Assembly: GCA_017405305.1 (NCBI GenBank)
Contig: JAFRAT010000017.1
Location: 1-64,000 of the forward strand
Source of the DNA: Aeriscardovia sp.
GTDB lineage: Bacteria; Actinomycetota; Actinomycetes; Actinomycetales; Bifidobacteriaceae
DNA length: 64,000 bases
Direction of reading: 5' to 3'
Shown: positions 40,072 to 50,089 of the stretch, piece after piece
Numbering within the stretch: the first letter of the stretch is position 1
Layout of the letters: every line of letters begins with the position of its first letter
The notes under the pieces: model-generated
The model's database searches: none
What the model saw: the letters and a program-made list of their open reading frames with translations, nothing else
What the model was told of the DNA's origin: nothing
Program-made: the position numbers and the translations under genes

Positions 40072-40317
40072 TCACTGGTTGAGTGGGCCGAATCCCAGCG
40101 GCCGCGCCTTCTGCGCGCCGACGACGGCATAGCCAACGGCGGATCCCGGGATGAGGATGCGGCGGCCCTTTGCGTCGGTGAGCCGTGTGGTGGAACCGTT
40201 GGCGATGGCCTCATCGAGGTCGTCCATCACGCTATCGGCGGATTGCTCCGTGGTAAAGGTCAGGGGGCGTCCGACCTGCTTGATGCCGATTTCGACGTTG
40301 ATTTCGCTGGTGTTCAC
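40072..40317 (-). CDS. DUF3107 protein
   Basis: An 81-residue actinobacteria-specific protein (family of the mycobacterial TB9.4 protein). The whole sequence fits the family: a beta strand-rich start VEIGIKQVGRPLTF, the central QSADSVMDDLDEAIANG, and the basic ILIPGSAVGYAVVG end. Function unknown. Its ATG overlaps the stop of the upstream phosphotransferase gene by four bases (40314-40317), so the two are translationally coupled. Confidence 0.92.
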   Translation of the reverse strand: MNTSEINVEIGIKQVGRPLTFTTEQSADSVMDDLDEAIANGSTTRLTDAKGRRILIPGSAVGYAVVGAQKARPLGFGPLNQ

Positions 40318-42245
40318 TTGTTCTCTCCATTCTTCGCGCTCTGGACGGTGGCTTGCAGGACCATCGTAGCCGGGTAGGCGGTTTCATCGCTGCCGTTTTC
40401 GCTGTCCGCATGCGCGGTGACGATAGTCATGTGCCGGTCCTTTGCGGATTGCAGGGCCGCGGCCTGCGCCGCCGAAATCGAGTAGGTGTCGTTGGACGCC
40501 GCCGCAGGCTGGGGCGTCGTCGGCTGGACCGCGGACTGGCTCGTGGTCGGCTTGCGCAGCGGTTCGTCCGCGCCGCGTAGCCGTACGGAACCGGCGACGT
40601 GCACGTCCGCTCCGATGGACTGCCGCTGGCTGGCAGCGAAGGACGCGGCACTGAACAGAGCGGTGTCCAACTCGCTCATCGGCTTTGGATTGCCGTTCTC
40701 GTCCAGATTCGCCTTCTTCTCTTGCTCGGCCTGCAGATCGATGCCGTTGCGGTTGGCGATGGCGGCGCGCGCGACTGTCTGCAGCATGGCCGCGGCCAGG
40801 GCCGGGTCCTGCGGCCGTGCCGCAGGACCCGGCCGGGCGGAGGCGTTGAGCTGAGCGTCGTTCCGATCGGTAAAGCCGTCGGCGGCACTCTGGTCGCTCG
40901 CGGTCGCGGCCAGGCGCGCGCTGGCTTCGGCGGAACGCTCCGCAGACGCGGCGGCGTTATTGGCAGACGCGTTATCATCGAGGTCGTCGGTCTGGATGCC
41001 GGTGCTGCGCGCAGCGTCGACCACAACGCGCGCAGCGTCCTCGGCGGACGACGGCACGTCGGGGCGCGCGGGATCGAGCGTCGACACGATGCTCGTCACG
41101 GCCTCGGACGCAGCGTCACCGGTGCCGTCGCCCCAGCGGATGGATGGTCCGCCGAACTCCTGTTGGACTTGCTCGCGCATTCGCGGGGAGCCGGACTTGC
41201 CCAGCAGCGTGCCGACGGTCACCGTGGAGTTGGCGTCCTCCTTGGCGGCGTCCTCTTGGCTTGCGCGGGAGGCGTTGACGGAGTTGTCCGGCGTAACGGC
41301 GGTGACCGGAGTCAGGATGGAGGCGAGGTTCTCCACGCGGACGCGCGCCTCGTCGATCCAGACGCGGTCCATGGAGTCGAGGGAGCGAAGGAAGTCGGTG
41401 ACGATGTTCATCTGGCGCCACAGGCGGGCGCGCGGCACGATGCGCGAGTCCATATGCGAACCCATGACGCGGCCGTACTCCGACAAGACGGCGTCGCGCT
41501 GCACATCGGAGATGGAGTCCTCGAACAGCCACGCAAAGTCGCGGGCCGGGTCGCTGATCTGCAGTCGCTCCCAGTTGCGGATGGCACTGACGCCAGAATC
41601 GAGGAACAGCACGTCATTGGGCCGGTAATCGCCGTGCACGAGGCTCGCGCGGAAGTCCCACAACGCGTCGACAGTGATGAGCTGGTCCCAGCGGTTGAGG
41701 ATGGAGCGCGGAATGTCGCGCTCGATGGTCAGATGGTCCATCCAGGCCTTCAACTCTTCGCGGATCGCCGAGCCGCTGAACGTCTGGTAGCCGGATTCCA
41801 TGAGTTTGTCCGGCTTGAGACAGTGGATCTTGGCGATGGCCGCGCCCAGGGACGCGCACAGGGAGGTGTCCAGGGATTCGAACGGGCGCGGGAACCCTTC
41901 GAGCTGCAGGGTGATGAGGACTGTCTTTAGACCGTTATCCGTCTTGGCGTCGCCGGTGTGCACAGTCCTCTCGAGCTGGAAACCCAGCCGGCGCAGCAGC
42001 TCGCCGCTTGGACGGATGGAGTTGGCAGCAGCGGCGCGTTTGCGCAGCAGCGCGCAGGCCTGTTCGTCTAGGCCAACGCTGATGTCGTAGGAGTCGCCGT
42101 TCTGGGTCAGAAGGATGCCGGTAACGATGTCCTTGCCCTCGTCCGTGCGCGGCAAATCGTCCGTCAGACTCACCGACACGATCGGCAAGTCGGGAGCAAC
42201 GGCGGACGCGAGCGCAGCAAGGAAATAGGGACTCCGATTTTTCAC
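40314..42245 (-). CDS. Aminoglycoside-phosphotransferase-like protein with long disordered tail
   Basis: A 643-residue protein: residues about 1-300 have the APH (kinase-like) fold, with the catalytic loop SLVHGDYRPNDVLFLD and SDPARDFAWLFEDS; residues 330-643 are Ala/Ser/Asp/Gln-rich and probably disordered. The second metal-binding Asp, normally in a V-I-D-W-E context, reads A-I-R-N-W-E, so this may be an inactive or altered kinase. The start is GTG at 42245; an overlapping ATG is out of frame. It diverges from the helicase gene by about 50 bp and couples to DUF3107 downstream. Substrate unknown; no sign of antibiotic-resistance function. Confidence 0.82.
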   Translation of the reverse strand: MKNRSPYFLAALASAVAPDLPIVSVSLTDDLPRTDEGKDIVTGILLTQNGDSYDISVGLDEQACALLRKRAAAANSIRPSGELLRRLGFQLERTVHTGDAKTDNGLKTVLITLQLEGFPRPFESLDTSLCASLGAAIAKIHCLKPDKLMESGYQTFSGSAIREELKAWMDHLTIERDIPRSILNRWDQLITVDALWDFRASLVHGDYRPNDVLFLDSGVSAIRNWERLQISDPARDFAWLFEDSISDVQRDAVLSEYGRVMGSHMDSRIVPRARLWRQMNIVTDFLRSLDSMDRVWIDEARVRVENLASILTPVTAVTPDNSVNASRASQEDAAKEDANSTVTVGTLLGKSGSPRMREQVQQEFGGPSIRWGDGTGDAASEAVTSIVSTLDPARPDVPSSAEDAARVVVDAARSTGIQTDDLDDNASANNAAASAERSAEASARLAATASDQSAADGFTDRNDAQLNASARPGPAARPQDPALAAAMLQTVARAAIANRNGIDLQAEQEKKANLDENGNPKPMSELDTALFSAASFAASQRQSIGADVHVAGSVRLRGADEPLRKPTTSQSAVQPTTPQPAAASNDTYSISAAQAAALQSAKDRHMTIVTAHADSENGSDETAYPATMVLQATVQSAKNGENK

Positions 42246-42296
42246 ATTTCAACACTAATACAAACGAAGCGATGAAATCCTGGCATACGCGCAAAA

Positions 42297-43919
42297 ATGA
42301 GAATTATGACACAAATCCCTTCTGACGAGCTGCTGGCCGGCTTGGACGACGCTCAGCGACGTGCCGCGACCTGTCTCGACGGGCCGGTCCGTATCCTGGC
42401 GGTAGCCGGTGCCGGCAAGACGCGGACCATCACCCGGCGCATCGCCTACGGGTGCGCGACCGGCAAGTGGAACCCTCGCCGGACGGTGGCCGTCACGTTC
42501 ACCGACAAGGCCGCGCAGGAGATGCAGAGCCGCCTGCGGAAGTTGGGAGCAGCCGAAGTGACGGCGGCGACCTTCCACTCGTTAGCGTTTTCGCAGCTGG
42601 GACGCGTCTGGCGCGACCTTGTTGGCGGCGACATGCCCATCCTCATGGCCGGACCGTCCAGCCACGGTCCGGCTGGCCAGGACCCAGAGGCACCCGACCC
42701 CCTAGCGCTGGTGGCCGACGTCGTCGATAGCGTTTCACCGGCGCAGAGCACGTCGCCCCGCGAAGCCCAGGATGTGCTCTCGGAGATCTCCTGGACGAAA
42801 TCAGAGCTGATTCCACCCGAGGATTACCCGGCGATGTGTGCGCGCACGAGCCGCGTCCCACCGGCAGCGCTGGACCCCAAGCGGATGCAGGCCATTCTGC
42901 TGCGCTACGAGCAGGCGAAATCCGAACGGCACGCTATGGACTTCGACGACATTCTGCTGATTCTCTGCCACCTGATCGAGACGTCAGACGAAGCAGCGAT
43001 GATGACGCGCGATACGATCGGCTGGCTCACAGTCGACGAGTACCAGGACGTTTCCCCGCTGGAGCACCGGCTCGTGGACCTGTGGCTGGGCGCGGGGAGC
43101 AGGGCGAAATCCACGGCGTCGGCGAACCGCAATATCTGCGTGGTGGGCGACCCGGCGCAGACCATCTATTCCTTCGCCGGAGCCACCAGCTGGTACCTGC
43201 TAAACTTCGCGCGCGAGTTCGCTCCCTTGTCGGCCGACGTCAAGCTGACGACGGACTACCGGTCGGTGCCCGCCATCGTCGGCTGCGCGAACCGCGTGCT
43301 GGGGCGCTCGCCGCAGGCGCGGAACTATGTGCGCCTGCATCCGGCGGACGTGGCAACCTCGGCAGCGGCACCGGCTGCTGCTACGGTTTTGTCTGCTCAT
43401 GCGTCTCCGGGCCTTCGGTTCGTCCGGTTTGACACTGACGAGCAGGAGGCGCGGGCGGTCGCGCGGAGAATTGCCGAGCTGACCGCTGGCGGCGAGCCAG
43501 GTGACGAGATCGCCGTTCTGACGCGGACCAACGCGCAGCTGGACCCGTTCCGCGCAGCGATGGAGGAAGCGGGCATCCCCTACCGGATGCGCCGCGACGG
43601 GGCCGTCGGCGCGGAGAAACCGACGGTACCCCGGTCCATCCGGGAGGCCATTCGCCGGGGGAGCGTCTCGTCGCTGCCAGCACCGGTGACGCTCTCGACG
43701 ATCCACGCCGCCAAGGGTCTGGAGTGGAACATCGTGTTCGTGTGCGGCGCATCCGACGGGCTCATCCCGTACAGCGCCGCCGCGGGCGACGAGCAAATCG
43801 AGGAAGAACGCCGTCTGCTTTACGTCGCCGTCACTCGCGGCAGGCGCCGGGTGCTGCTGTCCTACGCGCTGCGCAAGGACGCGGTCTCGCCGCTACGCCG
43901 TTCCAGCCGGTTCCTCTGA
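42297..43919 (+). CDS. Compact UvrD/PcrA-like ATP-dependent DNA helicase
   Basis: Superfamily 1A helicase, 540 residues. Motifs in order: Q-motif region LDDAQRRAATCLDGP, Walker A AVAGAGKTRTITRR, motif II TVDEYQDVSPLEH, motif III TIYSFAGATSWYLL, motif IV KLTTDYRS, motif V LSTIHAAKGLEWNIVF, motif VI LLYVAVTRGRRRVLLSYAL. Only about 30 residues separate RMRRDGAVG from motif V, where subdomain 2B (over 100 residues) sits in UvrD/PcrA; no HRDC or RQC domain follows. A -10-like CATACG seven bases before ATG 42297 suggests a leaderless start; ATG 42306 is the alternative. Confidence 0.87.
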   Translation: MRIMTQIPSDELLAGLDDAQRRAATCLDGPVRILAVAGAGKTRTITRRIAYGCATGKWNPRRTVAVTFTDKAAQEMQSRLRKLGAAEVTAATFHSLAFSQLGRVWRDLVGGDMPILMAGPSSHGPAGQDPEAPDPLALVADVVDSVSPAQSTSPREAQDVLSEISWTKSELIPPEDYPAMCARTSRVPPAALDPKRMQAILLRYEQAKSERHAMDFDDILLILCHLIETSDEAAMMTRDTIGWLTVDEYQDVSPLEHRLVDLWLGAGSRAKSTASANRNICVVGDPAQTIYSFAGATSWYLLNFAREFAPLSADVKLTTDYRSVPAIVGCANRVLGRSPQARNYVRLHPADVATSAAAPAAATVLSAHASPGLRFVRFDTDEQEARAVARRIAELTAGGEPGDEIAVLTRTNAQLDPFRAAMEEAGIPYRMRRDGAVGAEKPTVPRSIREAIRRGSVSSLPAPVTLSTIHAAKGLEWNIVFVCGASDGLIPYSAAAGDEQIEEERRLLYVAVTRGRRRVLLSYALRKDAVSPLRRSSRFL

Positions 43920-44063
43920 GCAGGCTCGCCGGGAGGAAGACGGTCGAAGAAAGCGCTGCAAGAGCGAAAGAACCGCGCTGGCATGATGCTGGCACGGTCC
44001 TTTGATTGATGTTGGCCTGCCGGACGAGTGGCCGAAATCGGCTCACCGCGAGGAGGGGTTGGA

Positions 44064-45704
44064 TCACTTGCTTTCGCCGGTGTCGGAAGCGCCGCTGCCG
44101 TCATCGTTGTTGTCGGCGTCGGAACCGCCGTGATCGATGCCCTTATCGACGTCGTTCGTATTGTCGCCGCTGCCGTTCGCGGCTTCTTCGGCCAGGAGCT
44201 TGTCGAGGGCGGCGTCCCAGTCCATCATGCCGCGCGGAGCTGGGCTGTCCGTTGCGGACGTCCCGTTCGCTGTGGCGTCGGAAGAGCCGGTGCTGGAGCC
44301 GCCTTCGCGCCTCGCGCTTGGGGTATTGCTTTCGTCGGTCATGTTCCCGTTGCTCGCAATGCCGCGGCGCGCCGCGCTTCCGTTGATCGCGTTGCCGTCG
44401 GTGCCGGGAATCTGCGGCAGCAGGTCCGGGTGGGCCCAGTGGGCGTCGCGGGACGCCGCACCGTCAGCTGTGAGCTTCTCCCAGACGCCGCAGGCCTCGC
44501 GTGCCGCGCGTGGGCGCAGCTCCAGACCCAGCAGGCTCTCGAAGGTCCGTTCGGCCGGACCGCCCGCCGCGCGCCGCCGGCGCATCATCTCTCGCAGCTG
44601 GCCGATATGCGGCAGGAACGCGTTGCCGGCGCGCCAGGTGGCGCAGTCCACCCAGCCTTCGACGAGCGCGAGCATGGATTCCAGGCGGCGCTTGGCCTCG
44701 AGTTGCTCCGGGGATTCCTCCATGCCGACCTTGGCTAGGTTGACGGCCCCGCCGATCTCTCCGGGATTCATGGACACCGCCCCGCGCAGCTGTTCCTCGA
44801 CGGCATCAAGGTCGATGCCGATGCTGCGGGCGTATTTGTCGATGAGCACCTCGATCTGCGGCATCAGCCACGGCGTCGACGCGAACAGCCGGGCGTGCGC
44901 CGCTTCGCGCAGCGCGACAAAGCCCATGACCTCGTCGACGGGCAGCTTCAGGCCGTCGGCGAACGCCTGGATGTTCTCTGGCACGAGCGCGCCGGCTGGG
45001 TTCTCTGTCATGGCCATGCTTTGATCGAAGCTGCCGAACACCTCGTGCGCCAGGCGGCCGGAGGCCTGTCCGAGCTGGATGGCGAAAGTGGTGCTGCCCA
45101 GCAGCCGCATGATCCGACGCGGGTCCTTCATTCCCTCGGGGACGGGAATGGGCACCGGTCCGGCGAACAGGCCCGTGATTTCGCCGTCCAGGCCGCCCAG
45201 GCGTTCGGTGAACACGGATTCCAGCGCGGCGGTCGCCGACTTGGCTACGGGCGTCGCCAGCGTGAGCCAGGAGCCGATGGTCGCTTTCGTCCAGCCGGTC
45301 GGTGTGAGCACGTCGGGCTCGCCCGGCGCCGGGTCGAAGGCTGTCGCGGAGTCCAGCCACAGGTTCGCCCCGCTCAGGGCCGAGCGGGCCTGGCTCTCCT
45401 GCGCTGCGCTGAGGAAACCGCGGGAGTCCTCGCCGGCCTTGCGTTCGGCGAGCGTGGCCGCCAGACGGCGGTTGATAGGCTCCTGGTCGGAGCCGTCTGC
45501 CTGCGCGAAGGACGACATCCCGCTCTCGGCGAACGCGGCCAGCAGGTCGTGCATGTCCTGCGGCTTAGGGAGCTTGCCTGGGTCCTGCGACAGCAGCTGG
45601 TCCTGGATTTCCCGGGGGAGCCGCGAGAACTGGTTCCACAGGGCTTCGCCTTGGAGGGAACCGAAGGAATCGATCATCCACTGGTGCAGTTCGTTGCTGT
45701 CCAT
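44064..45704 (-). CDS. DUF2342 zinc-dependent metalloprotease-like protein
   Basis: A 546-residue member of the actinobacterial DUF2342 family (annotated as zinc-dependent metalloprotease or F420-associated hydrolase). The metallohydrolase-like helix reads GFVALREAAHARLFASTPWL, with the family's RE..H pattern in place of a full HExxH. The N-terminal HQWMIDSFGSLQGEALWNQF, LGSTTFAIQLGQASGRLAHE and QLREMMRRRRAAGGP blocks are also familial. The last 110 residues are Asp/Ser/Gly/Asn-rich and probably disordered. Divergent from the S16 protease gene, its usual neighbour in actinobacteria. Confidence 0.87.
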   Translation of the reverse strand: MDSNELHQWMIDSFGSLQGEALWNQFSRLPREIQDQLLSQDPGKLPKPQDMHDLLAAFAESGMSSFAQADGSDQEPINRRLAATLAERKAGEDSRGFLSAAQESQARSALSGANLWLDSATAFDPAPGEPDVLTPTGWTKATIGSWLTLATPVAKSATAALESVFTERLGGLDGEITGLFAGPVPIPVPEGMKDPRRIMRLLGSTTFAIQLGQASGRLAHEVFGSFDQSMAMTENPAGALVPENIQAFADGLKLPVDEVMGFVALREAAHARLFASTPWLMPQIEVLIDKYARSIGIDLDAVEEQLRGAVSMNPGEIGGAVNLAKVGMEESPEQLEAKRRLESMLALVEGWVDCATWRAGNAFLPHIGQLREMMRRRRAAGGPAERTFESLLGLELRPRAAREACGVWEKLTADGAASRDAHWAHPDLLPQIPGTDGNAINGSAARRGIASNGNMTDESNTPSARREGGSSTGSSDATANGTSATDSPAPRGMMDWDAALDKLLAEEAANGSGDNTNDVDKGIDHGGSDADNNDDGSGASDTGESK

Positions 45705-45760
45705 CGCTGTTGTGTCCCATCTGTTTTGGTGCGCTGATAACCGTCTATACTATGAAAAAT

Positions 45761-46651
45761 ATGTCTTCTTTGCACCGCGAGGTCTCGAGCTTGCAATCCG
45801 TTCAGCCATCAGGGGAAAAGTGTCGTTGGTGGCGTCGGAACGTCGGATGGATGTTGCTCGTCGTTCTGGTGGCGTGCCTGTTCCTCCCGACAAATTATGT
45901 CATCGAGATGCCCGGTCCGACGATGAACGTTCTGGGTCGCGAGACGCTCGACGACGGCGGATCCGGCAATGCCGCGGCCTCGAAGGAAGACGCCATCCGC
46001 ATCGCAGGTGCTCCGGTCAAGCCGACGAGCGGCAAGCTGCTGATGGTCACTGTCAACGTGGAAGGCTCGCCGCAAGACCCGATCAACGCCATGCAGACGC
46101 TGGCGGCCTGGTTCCATCCGCAGGAGGCGGTCATGCCGCGCGAGGTCGTGTTCCCTATCGGCGAGACGACGAAGGCCTACGACAAGCAGATCGATGGGCA
46201 AATGTCCGGCGCGCAGGGCCAGGCCCAGTCCGTGGCGCTGAAATTCATCGCGCAGCGGCATCTGGCGGATCTGGATGACCAGGACATCAGAATCGACATG
46301 AACGCAGGCGATGTCGGCGGCCCGAGCGCGGGGATGATGTTCGCGCTCGGTACTATCGACAAGCTGACGACCGGCACCATGGCGGGCGATCAGACCATCG
46401 CTGGCACCGGCACTATTTCCGCGGAGGAACAGATCGGTAAAATCGGCGGCATCCGGCTGAAGATGCTCGGTGCCCGCCGCGACGGCGCGTCCTGGTTCCT
46501 GGCGCCGTCCGGCAACTGCCCCGATGTCGCGGGCTACGTGCCCGCGGGACTGCGGGTCGTCAAGGTCTCGACGCTCTTGCAGGCCTACGACGCCGTCGTG
46601 GCAATCGGCCAGGGCCATGGAGCGGATCTGCCGACCTGCACGGCGAAGTGA
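45761..46651 (+). CDS. Membrane-anchored S16 (Lon-like, YlbL family) protease lacking an evident PDZ domain
   Basis: A 296-residue protein: one N-terminal membrane segment (VGWMLLVVLVACLFLPTNYV), an extracytoplasmic region beginning IEMPGPTMNVLGRE, and a C-terminal Lon S16 domain. The catalytic Ser is in VGGPSAGMMFALGTID and the Lys in IGKIGGIRLKMLGARRDGA. In YlbL-type proteins a PDZ domain normally lies between these parts; here MSGAQGQAQSVALKFIAQR leads almost directly into S16. TATACT at 45746-45751 places transcription start next to ATG 45761, which I chose; ATG 45752 overlaps the promoter. Probably a cell-surface processing or quality-control protease. Confidence 0.87.
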   Translation: MSSLHREVSSLQSVQPSGEKCRWWRRNVGWMLLVVLVACLFLPTNYVIEMPGPTMNVLGRETLDDGGSGNAAASKEDAIRIAGAPVKPTSGKLLMVTVNVEGSPQDPINAMQTLAAWFHPQEAVMPREVVFPIGETTKAYDKQIDGQMSGAQGQAQSVALKFIAQRHLADLDDQDIRIDMNAGDVGGPSAGMMFALGTIDKLTTGTMAGDQTIAGTGTISAEEQIGKIGGIRLKMLGARRDGASWFLAPSGNCPDVAGYVPAGLRVVKVSTLLQAYDAVVAIGQGHGADLPTCTAK

Positions 46652-46702
46652 TAAACAGGCGCAGGCATAGTGACGACGGGTGGCGAAGTAAAGAACGGCT
46701 GC

Positions 46703-46708
46703 TATGCT
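46703..46708 (+). promoter_or_regulatory. Predicted -10 element giving a leaderless DUF3052 mRNA
   Basis: TATGCT, with TGC ahead of it (extended -10), ends eight bases before the GTG start at 46717. No Shine-Dalgarno is visible. Confidence 0.4.
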
Positions 46709-46716
46709 CTTTGCTT

Positions 46717-47154
46717 GTGGTAAGCACAACCCCAACGCAGGCTGCAGGGCTTGGTTTCAAGAAAGATGACATTATTCAGGAGTGGCTCTGGGACGAGGAC
46801 GTCGACGAGGGTGTCCGCGACGCGATTTCGTCCATCACCGGCCAGGATCTTGTTGACGAGGATTATGACGGTGCCGTGGACGGCGCCATCATCTGGTGGC
46901 GCGACGGCGACGACGAGGACGCTTTGACGGATGATGTTGTCGACGCGGAGGCGCCGTTGGATCCCGACAGCCCCTTCTGGATCATCGCGCCCAAGCCAGG
47001 CCGCGACGGCGCGGCAAGCCCGTCGGTCATCCAGAACGCCGCCAAAAGCGCCGGCATGAACCCGGCCAAGCCGATGAGCCTCAGTGCCGACTGGAACGCT
47101 ATTCGCCTGCTGCCGTTCGGAGCGGGACGTCAGCGCCACTCCGCCGAGCATTGA
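46717..47154 (+). CDS. DUF3052 protein
   Basis: A 145-residue acidic actinobacterial protein. Family landmarks: DIIQEWLWDEDVDEGVRDAI, GQDLVDEDYDGAVDGAIIWW, and a C-terminal half ending SLSADWNAIRLLPFG. The function of the family is unknown. I chose GTG at 46717 because the family sequence begins a few residues later and a -10 element sits just upstream; an ATG at 46648 would add 23 unrelated residues. Convergent with the TM2 gene across a strong hairpin. Confidence 0.85.
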   Translation: MVSTTPTQAAGLGFKKDDIIQEWLWDEDVDEGVRDAISSITGQDLVDEDYDGAVDGAIIWWRDGDDEDALTDDVVDAEAPLDPDSPFWIIAPKPGRDGAASPSVIQNAAKSAGMNPAKPMSLSADWNAIRLLPFGAGRQRHSAEH

Positions 47155-47254
47155 GAGACCAGATACCGAGCGCCGCGCGCCAGGCCAGCGCGCGGCGGAT
47201 CCGGGTCGAAGCCGTCGGAGCGCGCCATTGTAGGCGCGTGAGTCCTATGAACAG

Positions 47255-47295
47255 AAAAGGGCGGCCGCGGAGGGAAATCCCGCGGCCGCCCTTTT
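47255..47295. terminator. Bidirectional terminator, 16-bp perfect stem
   Basis: AAAAGGGCGGCCGCGG (47255-47270) and its exact complement (47280-47295) flank a 9-nt loop; U-runs occur on both strands. Lies between DUF3052 (+) and the TM2 gene (-). Confidence 0.85.
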
Positions 47296-47331
47296 CCATG
47301 CCGTTTCGCGCCGGTGTCCGCTCCCGGCCGC

Positions 47332-47679
47332 TCAGTCCTGCAGCTGCATGCCCTCGGCGTCGAGATGCCATTTCGAACCCGGGTGCGAGGCGAGGATATT
47401 GATGCCCTCGACCAGGCCCCAGATGAGCGAGACAATCGGACCCACGCCCACGCACACCCAGCCCACGAGCGTCAGCAGCAGCTGGCAGATGCCTCTGCCG
47501 GTATTGCCCAGGTAAAAGTTGTGGACGCCGAAAAGCCCCAGGAAAATGCCATAGAGACCAGCGACGATTTTCGATTTCTCCGACATCCCCGGGCCGCGGA
47601 GGTATTGCTGCTGATAGGTCCACGGGGCGCGCTGGCGCGGATCAGGCCCGGTGAAGTTCTGGTTGCCGAAGTCGTTCAT
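47332..47679 (-). CDS. TM2-domain membrane protein
   Basis: A 115-residue protein with a hydrophilic Gln/Pro-rich N-terminus and the TM2 domain: KIVAGLYGIFLGLFGVHNFY, LGNTGRGICQLLLTLVGWV, then VSLIWGLVEGINIL. Two membrane hairpin segments. TM2 proteins are widespread with no established biochemical role. ATG 47679 follows AAAGGAG. tRNA-Val lies just upstream on the same strand. Confidence 0.88.
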   Translation of the reverse strand: MNDFGNQNFTGPDPRQRAPWTYQQQYLRGPGMSEKSKIVAGLYGIFLGLFGVHNFYLGNTGRGICQLLLTLVGWVCVGVGPIVSLIWGLVEGINILASHPGSKWHLDAEGMQLQD

Positions 47680-47703
47680 GTCGCTCCTTTCGCGCGGTTC
47701 GAG

Positions 47704-47777
47704 TGGGCGATGAGGGGTTCGAACCCCCGACATCCACGGTGTAAACGTGGCGCTCTGACCAGCTGAGCTAATCGCCC
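47704..47777 (-). tRNA. tRNA-Val (anticodon TAC)
   Basis: Minus strand: acceptor GGGCGAT/ATCGCCC, discriminator A, no encoded CCA. Anticodon stem CCACG/CGTGG encloses TTTACAC (TAC). T arm GGGGG-TTCGAAC-CCCTC has one G-U pair. Confidence 0.95.
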
Positions 47778-47912
47778 GGATCCCGTCCAGTCTACCAGCC
47801 ACTCCTCCGTTTCCGGGACGGCTGTGGCGTCGGCTCTCCTCTGCGACCGTGATCCGGGATAAAATCGAAACAGCTGTGCTCAGGGGTTCTCCCGCACAGA
47901 CAGGAGGCTCTG

Positions 47913-48347
47913 ATGGCAACAAGCTATGAGGTCAGGAAAATCTCGAGGCGCCTGGATTTCGCCAGGCGTTGGAAAGCGAAGGTATCAAAAATGGCTGGAT
48001 TCGAACTGGGCGACGGCGTACGCAAGGTGTTCCTCGCCGGGATCGGCGCCATCGCGGCGACCGCAGAGAAAGGCCAGAAGCTTGTCAACGATCTCGTTGA
48101 CAAAGGCGAGCTGACGGTCGACCAGGGAAAGTCCCTCAACTCCGAGCTGGCGCATCGCGTCAAGGAGAAGACGGGCGTCGTGCGCGATGCCGCCCTGGAA
48201 GGCCGCATGAAACTCATGTCCGACGAGGAGCGCGCGGAGTTCGTGCGCAAAGTCAACGAGTTCGCCCACGGCGCCGCGACCCGACCTGCCAAGTCGGCGG
48301 ACGGTTCCGCGGCAGCCGACTCCAAGGAGACGGCGGAGCAGCGGTGA
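47913..48347 (+). CDS. Phasin-like / PHA-granule-associated family protein
   Basis: A 144-residue, highly helical amphipathic protein. The core FELGDGVRKVFLAGIGAIAA then EKGQKLVNDLVDKGELTVDQGK resembles phasin (PhaI/PhaF) family proteins. The second half is Ala/Lys/Glu-rich with a disordered tail. ATG 47913 has a strong AGGAGG; an ATG at 47991 would keep the core. A hairpin CTGTGC/GCACAG (47874-47879, 47894-47899) precedes the Shine-Dalgarno. Its stop overlaps the GTG of the following ABC1-kinase gene by four bases, so they are coupled. No PHA synthase is in the window; storage-granule function is doubtful. Confidence 0.82.
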   Translation: MATSYEVRKISRRLDFARRWKAKVSKMAGFELGDGVRKVFLAGIGAIAATAEKGQKLVNDLVDKGELTVDQGKSLNSELAHRVKEKTGVVRDAALEGRMKLMSDEERAEFVRKVNEFAHGAATRPAKSADGSAAADSKETAEQR

Positions 48348-50089
48348 CGGCGGAGCAGCGGCCTGGCGGGACCGACCCGTCCCGGGGAAGCAAGGATGTC
48401 TACGGCGCCGTCGCCGTCAAGGCGGCCGGCGACTTGCGGAAAGCGGGGAAAGCGTCCGGCGAGGATGTCGACGATTCGCGCGGCAGCCGTCTCAAGCGGT
48501 TGAGACAGATCGTGGGCGTGCTGCGCCGCTACGACCTGTTCCGCGGGGTGACGCCCGACAAGCTGTGCAATATGCTGCAGGCGCTGGGCCCGACCTTCGT
48601 CAAGGCCGGCCAAATCCTGTCGATGCGTTCGGAGATCCTGCCGCAGTCCTACTGCGACGCGCTGGCCAAGCTGCGCACCCACGCCAATCCGATGCCGTAC
48701 CAAACCGTGCTGGACACGCTGGAATCCGAGTACAGCCGCCCGATTGACGAGGTCTTCTCCTCGATCGACCGGCATCCATTGGGTTCCGCGTCGCTGGCGC
48801 AAGTGCACCACGCCACGCTCGTGACGGGCGAGGACGTCGCCGTCAAGGTGCAACGTCCCGGCGCCCGCGAGATGATGGCGCAGGACATCGAAATCATGCG
48901 CTCCGTCATGAAGTGGGCGTCCCGTCTGCTCGGCGCCTGGCAAGTTGTCGATCTGCAAGGCGTAGTCGAGGAGATCTGGGCGAGTTTCCGCTCCGAGACC
49001 GACTTCCTCGAGGAGACACGCAGCCTGCAAGAATTCCGCGAGTTCACAGCGTCCTACCGCTACATGGACTGCCCACGCGTCTACCCGCGCTGGTGCACGA
49101 GGCGCGTGGTCGTCATGGACTATGTGCGCGGCATTCCGCTGGGCCACACCGGCGAACTCGAGGCCGAGGGCTACGACCTGCAGGAGATCGGCACCAAGCT
49201 TGTCGACAACTACTCCGCGCAGATCCTGGACGAAGGCTTCTTCCACGCCGACCCGCATCCCGGCAACATCATCGTGCGCGACGGGAAGATCGTCCTCATC
49301 GACCTAGGCATGACCGGGCGCCTGACGTCCCGCATGCGTTCGCTGCTGCGCGGCATGATCTTCGCGCTTGCCAAAGGCGATTCCGTGGAACTCGAGAACA
49401 GCTTGCTGAGCCTGGCGCGCCTCAAGAAGAGCACCGGCGGCGTGGACCGCGCCGCGCTGCTGAACGACATCGACGACATCGTCGACGGTTTCGGGACCAT
49501 CGACCTGGCGGAGCTGGACATCGGTCAGTTCGTCATGTCCCTGTTCCAGATGGTCGAGCGCAACGGCCTGGAGCTGCCCGGCAGCGTCACGCTCGTTGCC
49601 CGCGCGCTAGTCACACTCGAAGGCACGCTCACGCGGTTCATCCCGGACGTCAACATGCTGGAGGTTATCGAGAGGCATGTCAAAAGCTCTGAGAACATCC
49701 GCGACGTTGCACGCAAAGAGACCGTGAGCCTGACGACGGAAGGGCTGCGGGCCACACACGGCCTGTTCGGCTCTCTGGCGGATTCCAAGACGGCCATGCG
49801 CCAGCTGACGCGCGGACAGCTGAAAGTCAACGCCGAACTCGTCCACCCGCAGGGCGCCGTGCAGCAGCTGTCGTATATCGTCGACCGCTTGACGATGGCC
49901 ATCATCATCGCCGGCCTGTTCGTCGGCTCGTCCATCGTCTACTACGCCCGCATCCAGCCAGTCATCTTCGGCATCCCGGTCGTGGGCATGATGGGCTACG
50001 TCGTGGCCTTCGTGCTGGGCGTATGGATCGTGATCGACATCCTGCACAAGAACCACTTGCTCAAGAAGCGTGCCAAGCGCAGGCGATAG
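48344..50089 (+). CDS. ABC1/UbiB-family atypical kinase-like protein
   Basis: A 581-residue member of the UbiB/ADCK family, known from quinone biosynthesis and lipid-related functions. Landmarks: the KxGQ motif in FVKAGQILSMRSEILPQSY, the Ala-rich nucleotide loop PLGSASLAQVHHA, VAVKVQRPGA (Lys), ETDFLEETR, the catalytic loop FFHADPHPGNIIV, and metal-binding LIDLGMTGRL. Two C-terminal hydrophobic segments (TMAIIIAGLFVGSSIVYYA and PVVGMMGYVVAFVLGVWIVI) anchor it in the membrane, as is usual. GTG start overlaps the phasin-like stop. Quinone synthesis is not expected in a bifidobacterial relative, so another lipid substrate is likely. Confidence 0.9.
   Translation: MTAEQRPGGTDPSRGSKDVYGAVAVKAAGDLRKAGKASGEDVDDSRGSRLKRLRQIVGVLRRYDLFRGVTPDKLCNMLQALGPTFVKAGQILSMRSEILPQSYCDALAKLRTHANPMPYQTVLDTLESEYSRPIDEVFSSIDRHPLGSASLAQVHHATLVTGEDVAVKVQRPGAREMMAQDIEIMRSVMKWASRLLGAWQVVDLQGVVEEIWASFRSETDFLEETRSLQEFREFTASYRYMDCPRVYPRWCTRRVVVMDYVRGIPLGHTGELEAEGYDLQEIGTKLVDNYSAQILDEGFFHADPHPGNIIVRDGKIVLIDLGMTGRLTSRMRSLLRGMIFALAKGDSVELENSLLSLARLKKSTGGVDRAALLNDIDDIVDGFGTIDLAELDIGQFVMSLFQMVERNGLELPGSVTLVARALVTLEGTLTRFIPDVNMLEVIERHVKSSENIRDVARKETVSLTTEGLRATHGLFGSLADSKTAMRQLTRGQLKVNAELVHPQGAVQQLSYIVDRLTMAIIIAGLFVGSSIVYYARIQPVIFGIPVVGMMGYVVAFVLGVWIVIDILHKNHLLKKRAKRRR

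Follow-up and report, generated by a model that had tools for sequence, protein, structure and literature searches.

In mycobacteria, the helicase gene uvrD2 lies in a neighbourhood that we take to be Rv3193c-Rv3198c, where UvrD2, a DUF2342 protein, a PDZ-Lon protease and an ABC1-family protein are grouped; Rv3194c is presumably the S16 protease of this locus and Rv3193c its UPF0182 neighbour. Active serine proteases listed in the literature include Rv3194c (PMC9817126), and a Tn-seq table published for a divisome protein of mycobacteria includes Rv3193c (PMC8093794). YlbL of Bacillus subtilis and SepM of Streptococcus are S16 proteases that combine a transmembrane (TM) anchor with a Lon-type Ser/Lys domain; when DNA is damaged, YlbL works against the SOS-induced division inhibitor YneA, and needs the Ser/Lys dyad to do so (PMC6051672). 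Here we describe a block of genes at positions 40072-50089 of a 64,000-nucleotide stretch of DNA (the window) from Aeriscardovia sp., of the family Bifidobacteriaceae, order Actinomycetales, class Actinomycetes and phylum Actinomycetota, in which a DUF2342 gene, encoding a zincin-like protein, and a gene for an S16 protease diverge from each other. A sequence-only reading had named eight genes in this block (DUF3107, APH-like, UvrD-like helicase, DUF2342, S16, DUF3052, phasin-like and ABC1) and had suggested, by comparison with the mycobacterial grouping, that they share a function. All eight were present at those coordinates by Pfam and NCBIfam, in coding frames that agree with a strong GC3 signal. 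The window zincin shares 82% identity with the zincin of an Aeriscardovia metagenome-assembled genome from cattle abomasum, and 57% with that of one from water buffalo.

Comparison with other genomes shows that the block is made up of modules that differ in age and is not one unit. By sequence comparison it is a reduced version, found in bifidobacteria, of the uvrD2 locus of actinobacteria, the oldest part of which is evidently the divergent two-gene unit of zincin and S16. The genes of this locus in the window are as follows.

40072..40317, minus strand: DUF3107 (SRB/TB9.4 family); Pfam PF11305, E 5e-21
40314..42245, minus strand: APH-like protein, predicted to be a pseudokinase and ending in a long low-complexity C-terminal stretch; Pfam APH, E 1e-13, residues 74-259
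42297..43919, plus strand: SF1 helicase derived from UvrD2, HRDC being absent and 2B vestigial; Pfam UvrD
44064..45704, minus strand: DUF2342, now Zincin_2 (TIGR03624), with RExxH; PF10103, E 1e-91
45705..45751, no strand: short divergent intergenic gap between zincin and S16, 47 bp if S16 starts at ATG 45752
45752..46651, plus strand: predicted membrane-anchored S16 (YlbL/SepM-type) Ser/Lys protease without PDZ, within an open reading frame (ORF) spanning 45710-46651 whose first in-frame ATG is at 45752; Lon_C, E 3e-9

To follow the locus across the phylum, the TIGR03624/PF10103 zincin was used as the anchor; searches found it in 101 of the 149 genomes from the phylum and in 38 of 39 close relatives. 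Eighty neighbourhoods of at most 20 kb each were cut around it and searched with profiles built iteratively from the window proteins, and the wider locus was defined by unsupervised clustering of ORFs, the clusters being named via Pfam and NCBIfam. Genes outside the window were called as stop-to-stop ORFs, neighbours are hidden at contig ends in the many draft genomes, and profile searches may miss short or diverged genes; the counts describe the sampled genomes, not the whole phylum. Zincin and S16 were less than 10 kb apart in 49 of the 54 phylum genomes that have both on one contig, spread over 16 families, and were divergent in 48 of these 49; a further 17 genomes, outside this count, carry the two on separate contigs. 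Within the family, the genes were divergent at every locus that has S16 (17/17). In genomes of 2-9 Mb, the pairing seen across the phylum far exceeds chance.

The pair is retained in order and class loci. The class-wide locus comprises an AdnAB-like helicase, APH, NudC, UvrD2 (with HRDC), WhiB, an MABP1-type ABC1, a SprT/YgjP-like protein, NUDIX, the divergent zincin and S16 (with PDZ), and UPF0182; UvrD2 and the APH-like gene accompany the pair across the class. The mycobacterial grouping fits this arrangement, whereas the corresponding place in the window is without the MABP1-type ABC1, WhiB and UPF0182, and holds DUF3052 and a UbiB-type ABC1 from other modules. A recurrent close neighbour of zincin is a gene for a SprT/YgjP-like metallopeptidase, present at 16 of 22 loci from the order and class (L036-L054, cluster 3).

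The order DUF3107-APH-UvrD-zincin|S16-DUF3052 recurs in nearly all Bifidobacteriaceae loci uncut by contig ends; in each of the 17 same-family genomes compared, DUF3107 lies 3.5-7.7 kb and DUF3052 1.6-2.9 kb from zincin. Among genomes of the order, DUF3107 is about 15 kb from zincin in 5 of 10 and far from it in others, and its closeness in the family appears to have come about by loss of intervening genes. At one family locus (L027, genome G162), the UvrD-APH-DUF3107 segment is inverted and stands on the S16 side of the pair, so this segment can move as a unit separate from zincin|S16-DUF3052.

The alternative that survives best is general synteny: individually important genes in a slowly rearranging region, with no shared function, where in-place deletions keep the survivors adjacent. 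In-place loss would account for the contiguity of DUF3107, APH, UvrD2 and zincin in the family without selection, the distances of DUF3107 in the order agree with it, and PHP and VKOR neighbours are also retained within the family. Genes for Rho, PGI and IleRS, all less than 10 kb from zincin in the window, served as controls; in the same order none of them was ever within 20 kb of zincin, and in the remaining genera of Bifidobacteriaceae this also held for Rho and PGI, while IleRS came within that distance in 5 of 15 genomes. Because these flanking genes scatter while zincin and S16 stay paired and divergent through 16 families, the grouping of the two exceeds general synteny, and we regard synteny as the whole explanation as possible but rather unlikely. 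The persistence that the sequence-only reading had claimed for the grouping in distant actinobacteria thus applies phylum-wide to zincin and S16 and class-wide to UvrD2 and APH, but only at the level of family or genus to DUF3052 and the phasin/ABC1 pair; the neighbourhood comparison it had proposed bears out the pair and not the block as a single unit. A function in common is plausible mainly for the zincin and S16 genes. The divergent pair is a phylum-wide signature and offers a testable partner for the uncharacterised zincin family (Rv3195 type) and for Rv3194c.

The window zincin matches, over its full length and above curated cut-offs, both the putative hydrolase family TIGR03624 (261 bits versus 136) and Zincin_2, PF10103 (308 bits versus 25). 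The solved relative with this fold, 3cmn, keeps HExxH, whereas the window protein reads RExxH, with arginine in place of the histidine that is the first zinc ligand. The residue is arginine in 22/22 order and class members, is mixed in Bifidobacteriaceae (R, V, I, Q, K or H), and is histidine in 34/34 members of the other clade, which comprises F420-associated and basal forms. Zincins linked to S16 outside the class include HExxH forms (L076, L078, L080, L088), which makes the pairing probably older than the loss of the zinc ligand. This replacement, arginine across the class and variable in Bifidobacteriaceae, appears to be a new observation.

The catalytic serine (GPSAG) and lysine (GGIxxK; GGIRLK in the window) of S16 were invariant in 46/46 aligned sequences, and the window protein has one predicted TM helix, a hydrophobic segment at residue 47 with a Kyte-Doolittle (KD) value of 2.17. 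Together with its Lon-type domain and NCBIfam assignment, these features place it in the YlbL/SepM superfamily by sequence. It differs from YlbL and SepM in its divergent pairing with a zincin-like gene and, as in all Bifidobacteriaceae, in being without PDZ: the interval that holds this domain is 58 aa in the window and 55-62 aa in all family members, versus 139-161 aa in all others, and Pfam PDZ was detected in the homologue at L052 and in neither the window S16 nor that at L023. A second, unlinked S16 occurs in large-genome class members of family f5 (G128:C1:5882799-5883596, G023, G107), and its profile match skips the PDZ interval; forms without PDZ thus either have more than one origin or represent an older paralogue.

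The window helicase keeps the SF1 motifs (Walker A, DExQD and motif VI), and it shares with UvrD2 its locus and motor motifs, UvrD2 being its best match among the helicases of the locus. Its tail after motif VI, however, is 26 aa (26-48 in the family) versus 125-168 in order and class UvrD2, and its gap between motifs IV and V, where 2B would lie, is 53 aa (29-69 in 15/18 family members, the exceptions being L020, L022 and L034) versus 121-129 in the order and class. Pfam HRDC was detected at L057 and L044, and not in the window, L023 or L035. The window helicase as modelled by AlphaFold (pLDDT 85) matched UvrD/PcrA, with low rmsd only to PcrA chains aligning over about 430 columns. The S16 of Bifidobacteriaceae has lost PDZ, and their UvrD2 has lost HRDC and most of 2B, losses that seem to be newly recognised here; as natural domain deletions, the two proteins should be useful for learning the roles of PDZ, 2B and HRDC.

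The APH-like protein departs from active members of its fold at two places in the window, where HGDxxxxN has become HGDxxxxD and the Mg-binding (second metal-binding) aspartate has become asparagine. In the family rows, the second catalytic aspartate was absent in 17/17 and the HGD aspartate was kept in 4/17, most reading HGG; the protein is thus a predicted pseudokinase, and an APH without catalytic residues in Bifidobacteriaceae appears likewise to be new. A CcrZ-like role was considered for this gene and set aside, the match being weak and far under the cut-off. DUF3107, which adjoins it in the window, belongs to the TB9.4/SRB family and has solved relatives in the PDB, 9nip (deposited as 'Small RNA-Binding protein (SRB)') and 7rur/7rus. 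A published list of signature proteins of actinobacteria includes DUF3107 as well as DUF3052, with their genes at distant loci in Streptomyces (PMC4255298). With these structures for DUF3107, and with S16 in the YlbL/SepM superfamily, the earlier description of the genes as uncharacterised holds less well for these two.

The anatomy of the locus, the linkage of its genes, the domain losses and the replacement of the zinc ligand can, from these comparisons, be put forward with high confidence. As an overall explanation we favour a pared-down uvrD2 locus that combines S16 membrane proteolysis with a zincin-like partner, and give it about an even chance of being right. Under this explanation S16, anchored by its single TM helix, would cut short membrane or extracytoplasmic proteins, a step modelled on YlbL, which has been proposed to clear YneA in Bacillus (PMC6051672). 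The zincin-like protein, its first zinc ligand lost in the class, would be a cytosolic binding or regulatory partner and not a peptidase. In Bifidobacteriaceae, S16 without PDZ would have to select its substrates through its membrane anchor, its N-terminal linker or a partner, and a truncated UvrD2 that keeps its motor motifs, with 2B and HRDC gone, should be less auto-inhibited or differently targeted. The class of protease substrate, the role of the zincin partner and any tie between helicase and protease are all offered tentatively. S16 is alone among these genes in having a relative whose function has been worked out, and a YlbL-like role in clearing a checkpoint is the best lead, though a tentative one drawn by analogy; if true, it would link a membrane protease with its DNA-repair surroundings.

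Several observations weigh against this explanation. The adjacency of UvrD2 to the pair in the family could result from in-place deletions alone, and a divergent layout is no proof of co-expression: a promoter motif shared by zincin and S16 was not conserved, matches to the SOS box (TCGAACN4GTTCGA, at most 2 mismatches) were weak and scattered with none at the intergenic starts of the block, and consensus promoters and terminators in the block were at or under the level of shuffled sequence. The window S16 scores 77 bits against the SepM equivalog NF041438, under its cut-off of 200, as does a PDZ-bearing class homologue (116 bits); and purified YlbL was inactive in vitro (PMC6051672). No LysM (YneA/DivS-like) protein was found in the 1.1 Mb Aeriscardovia genome assembly, in which LexA is directly divergent from NrdR (G000:C10:9271-12459, L126) with no small membrane gene between them; if the YlbL role is conserved, the substrate must therefore differ.

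A bolder form of the explanation would have zincin and S16 as a two-part membrane proteolysis system of Actinomycetota, in which the class zincin, a cytosolic pseudoenzyme derived from a metalloprotease, controls or feeds the extracytoplasmic S16, and the locus in Bifidobacteriaceae has been stripped to catalytic cores (a PDZ-less protease, a helicase without 2B and HRDC, and a pseudokinase); this we consider unlikely. Less probable still is relaxed selection, by which the losses of PDZ, HRDC, 2B, kinase residues and zinc ligand would be the decay of an outgoing locus in small genomes. Several unrelated losses do coincide at one locus, genomes are small in parts of the family and a few family loci are highly divergent; but the Ser/Lys dyad, the helicase Walker A and DExQD and the zincin glutamate are kept nearly everywhere, the frames are open with the GC3 signal noted above, and identical losses recur across genera, including genomes of 2-3 Mb.

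Beyond S16, the block continues with the following features.

46700..46708, plus strand: TGCTATGCT, putative extended -10 element of DUF3052; recurrence across family loci
46717..47154, plus strand: DUF3052, likely leaderless with a GTG start (ORF listed as 46648-47154); PF11253, E 7e-41
about 47332..47682, minus strand: TM2-domain protein, interrupting the block and outside the unit; Pfam TM2, E 2e-15
47703..47777, minus strand: tRNA-Val(TAC), interrupting the block and outside the unit; ARAGORN and Rfam
47913..48347, plus strand: phasin-like protein, first gene of a phasin-UbiB unit; Pfam Phasin, 32 bits versus a cut-off of 28.8
48344..50089, plus strand: ABC1/UbiB-type atypical kinase with C-terminal TM helices; UbiB, 321 bits

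DUF3052 appears to be a later arrival that joined S16 only in Bifidobacteriaceae. In 10 comparable order genomes it is at least 165 kb from zincin or on another contig, and in 13/13 order genomes it adjoins aceE, the gene for pyruvate dehydrogenase E1; it has been described as invariably beside a thiol-specific antioxidant gene (PMC4255298). The element TGCTATGCT recurs, exact or near-exact, a few nucleotides upstream of GTG in most family loci, and in the window the conserved start, GTG 46717, falls 8 nt after it; DUF3052 is thus probably expressed alone, as a leaderless message from its own promoter. The start-stop overlaps that had been reported were found, at 4 bp, for APH/DUF3107 and phasin/UbiB; that of S16 with DUF3052 is probably an artefact of choosing the first GTG, and translational coupling of the two was rejected. 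A model of DUF3052 (pLDDT 86) shows a Rossmann fold resembling that of methyltransferases, with no obvious SAM motif, and its Foldseek matches, with modest TM-scores, were class I methyltransferases and the N-terminal domain of anamorsin. The idea that DUF3052 replaces the lost PDZ was unsupported, the protein having this fold and no TM helix or signal.

The phasin-like gene and UbiB, split from the remainder of the block by the TM2 gene and tRNA-Val on the opposite strand, appear to be a separate two-gene unit that is near the block only in this genus: outside this genus, all 10 family genomes possessing the unit have it at a distance from the block. The window ABC1 is of another subfamily than the one linked to uvrD2, scoring 321 bits for UbiB versus 101 for MABP1 (NF050082), where the uvrD2-linked ABC1 scores 488 for MABP1 versus 170 for UbiB; its candidacy as an Rv3197 orthologue was ruled out by these scores and by its distant position elsewhere, and the mycobacterial parallel fails at this gene. 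A reading of everything from DUF3107 through ABC1 as a single functional block, sharing an envelope or DNA-linked role, is very improbable, since its adjacency in the window, and the family-wide closeness of the genes from DUF3107 to DUF3052, are set against the positions of DUF3052 and the phasin/ABC1 pair in other genomes, which largely refute it for these genes, and against the subfamily of the ABC1. DUF3052, phasin and UbiB are thereby removed from the guilt-by-association list at the uvrD2 locus. The phasin-like gene lies directly upstream of this UbiB in 11/11 UbiB-bearing family genomes that were examined (L111-L121).

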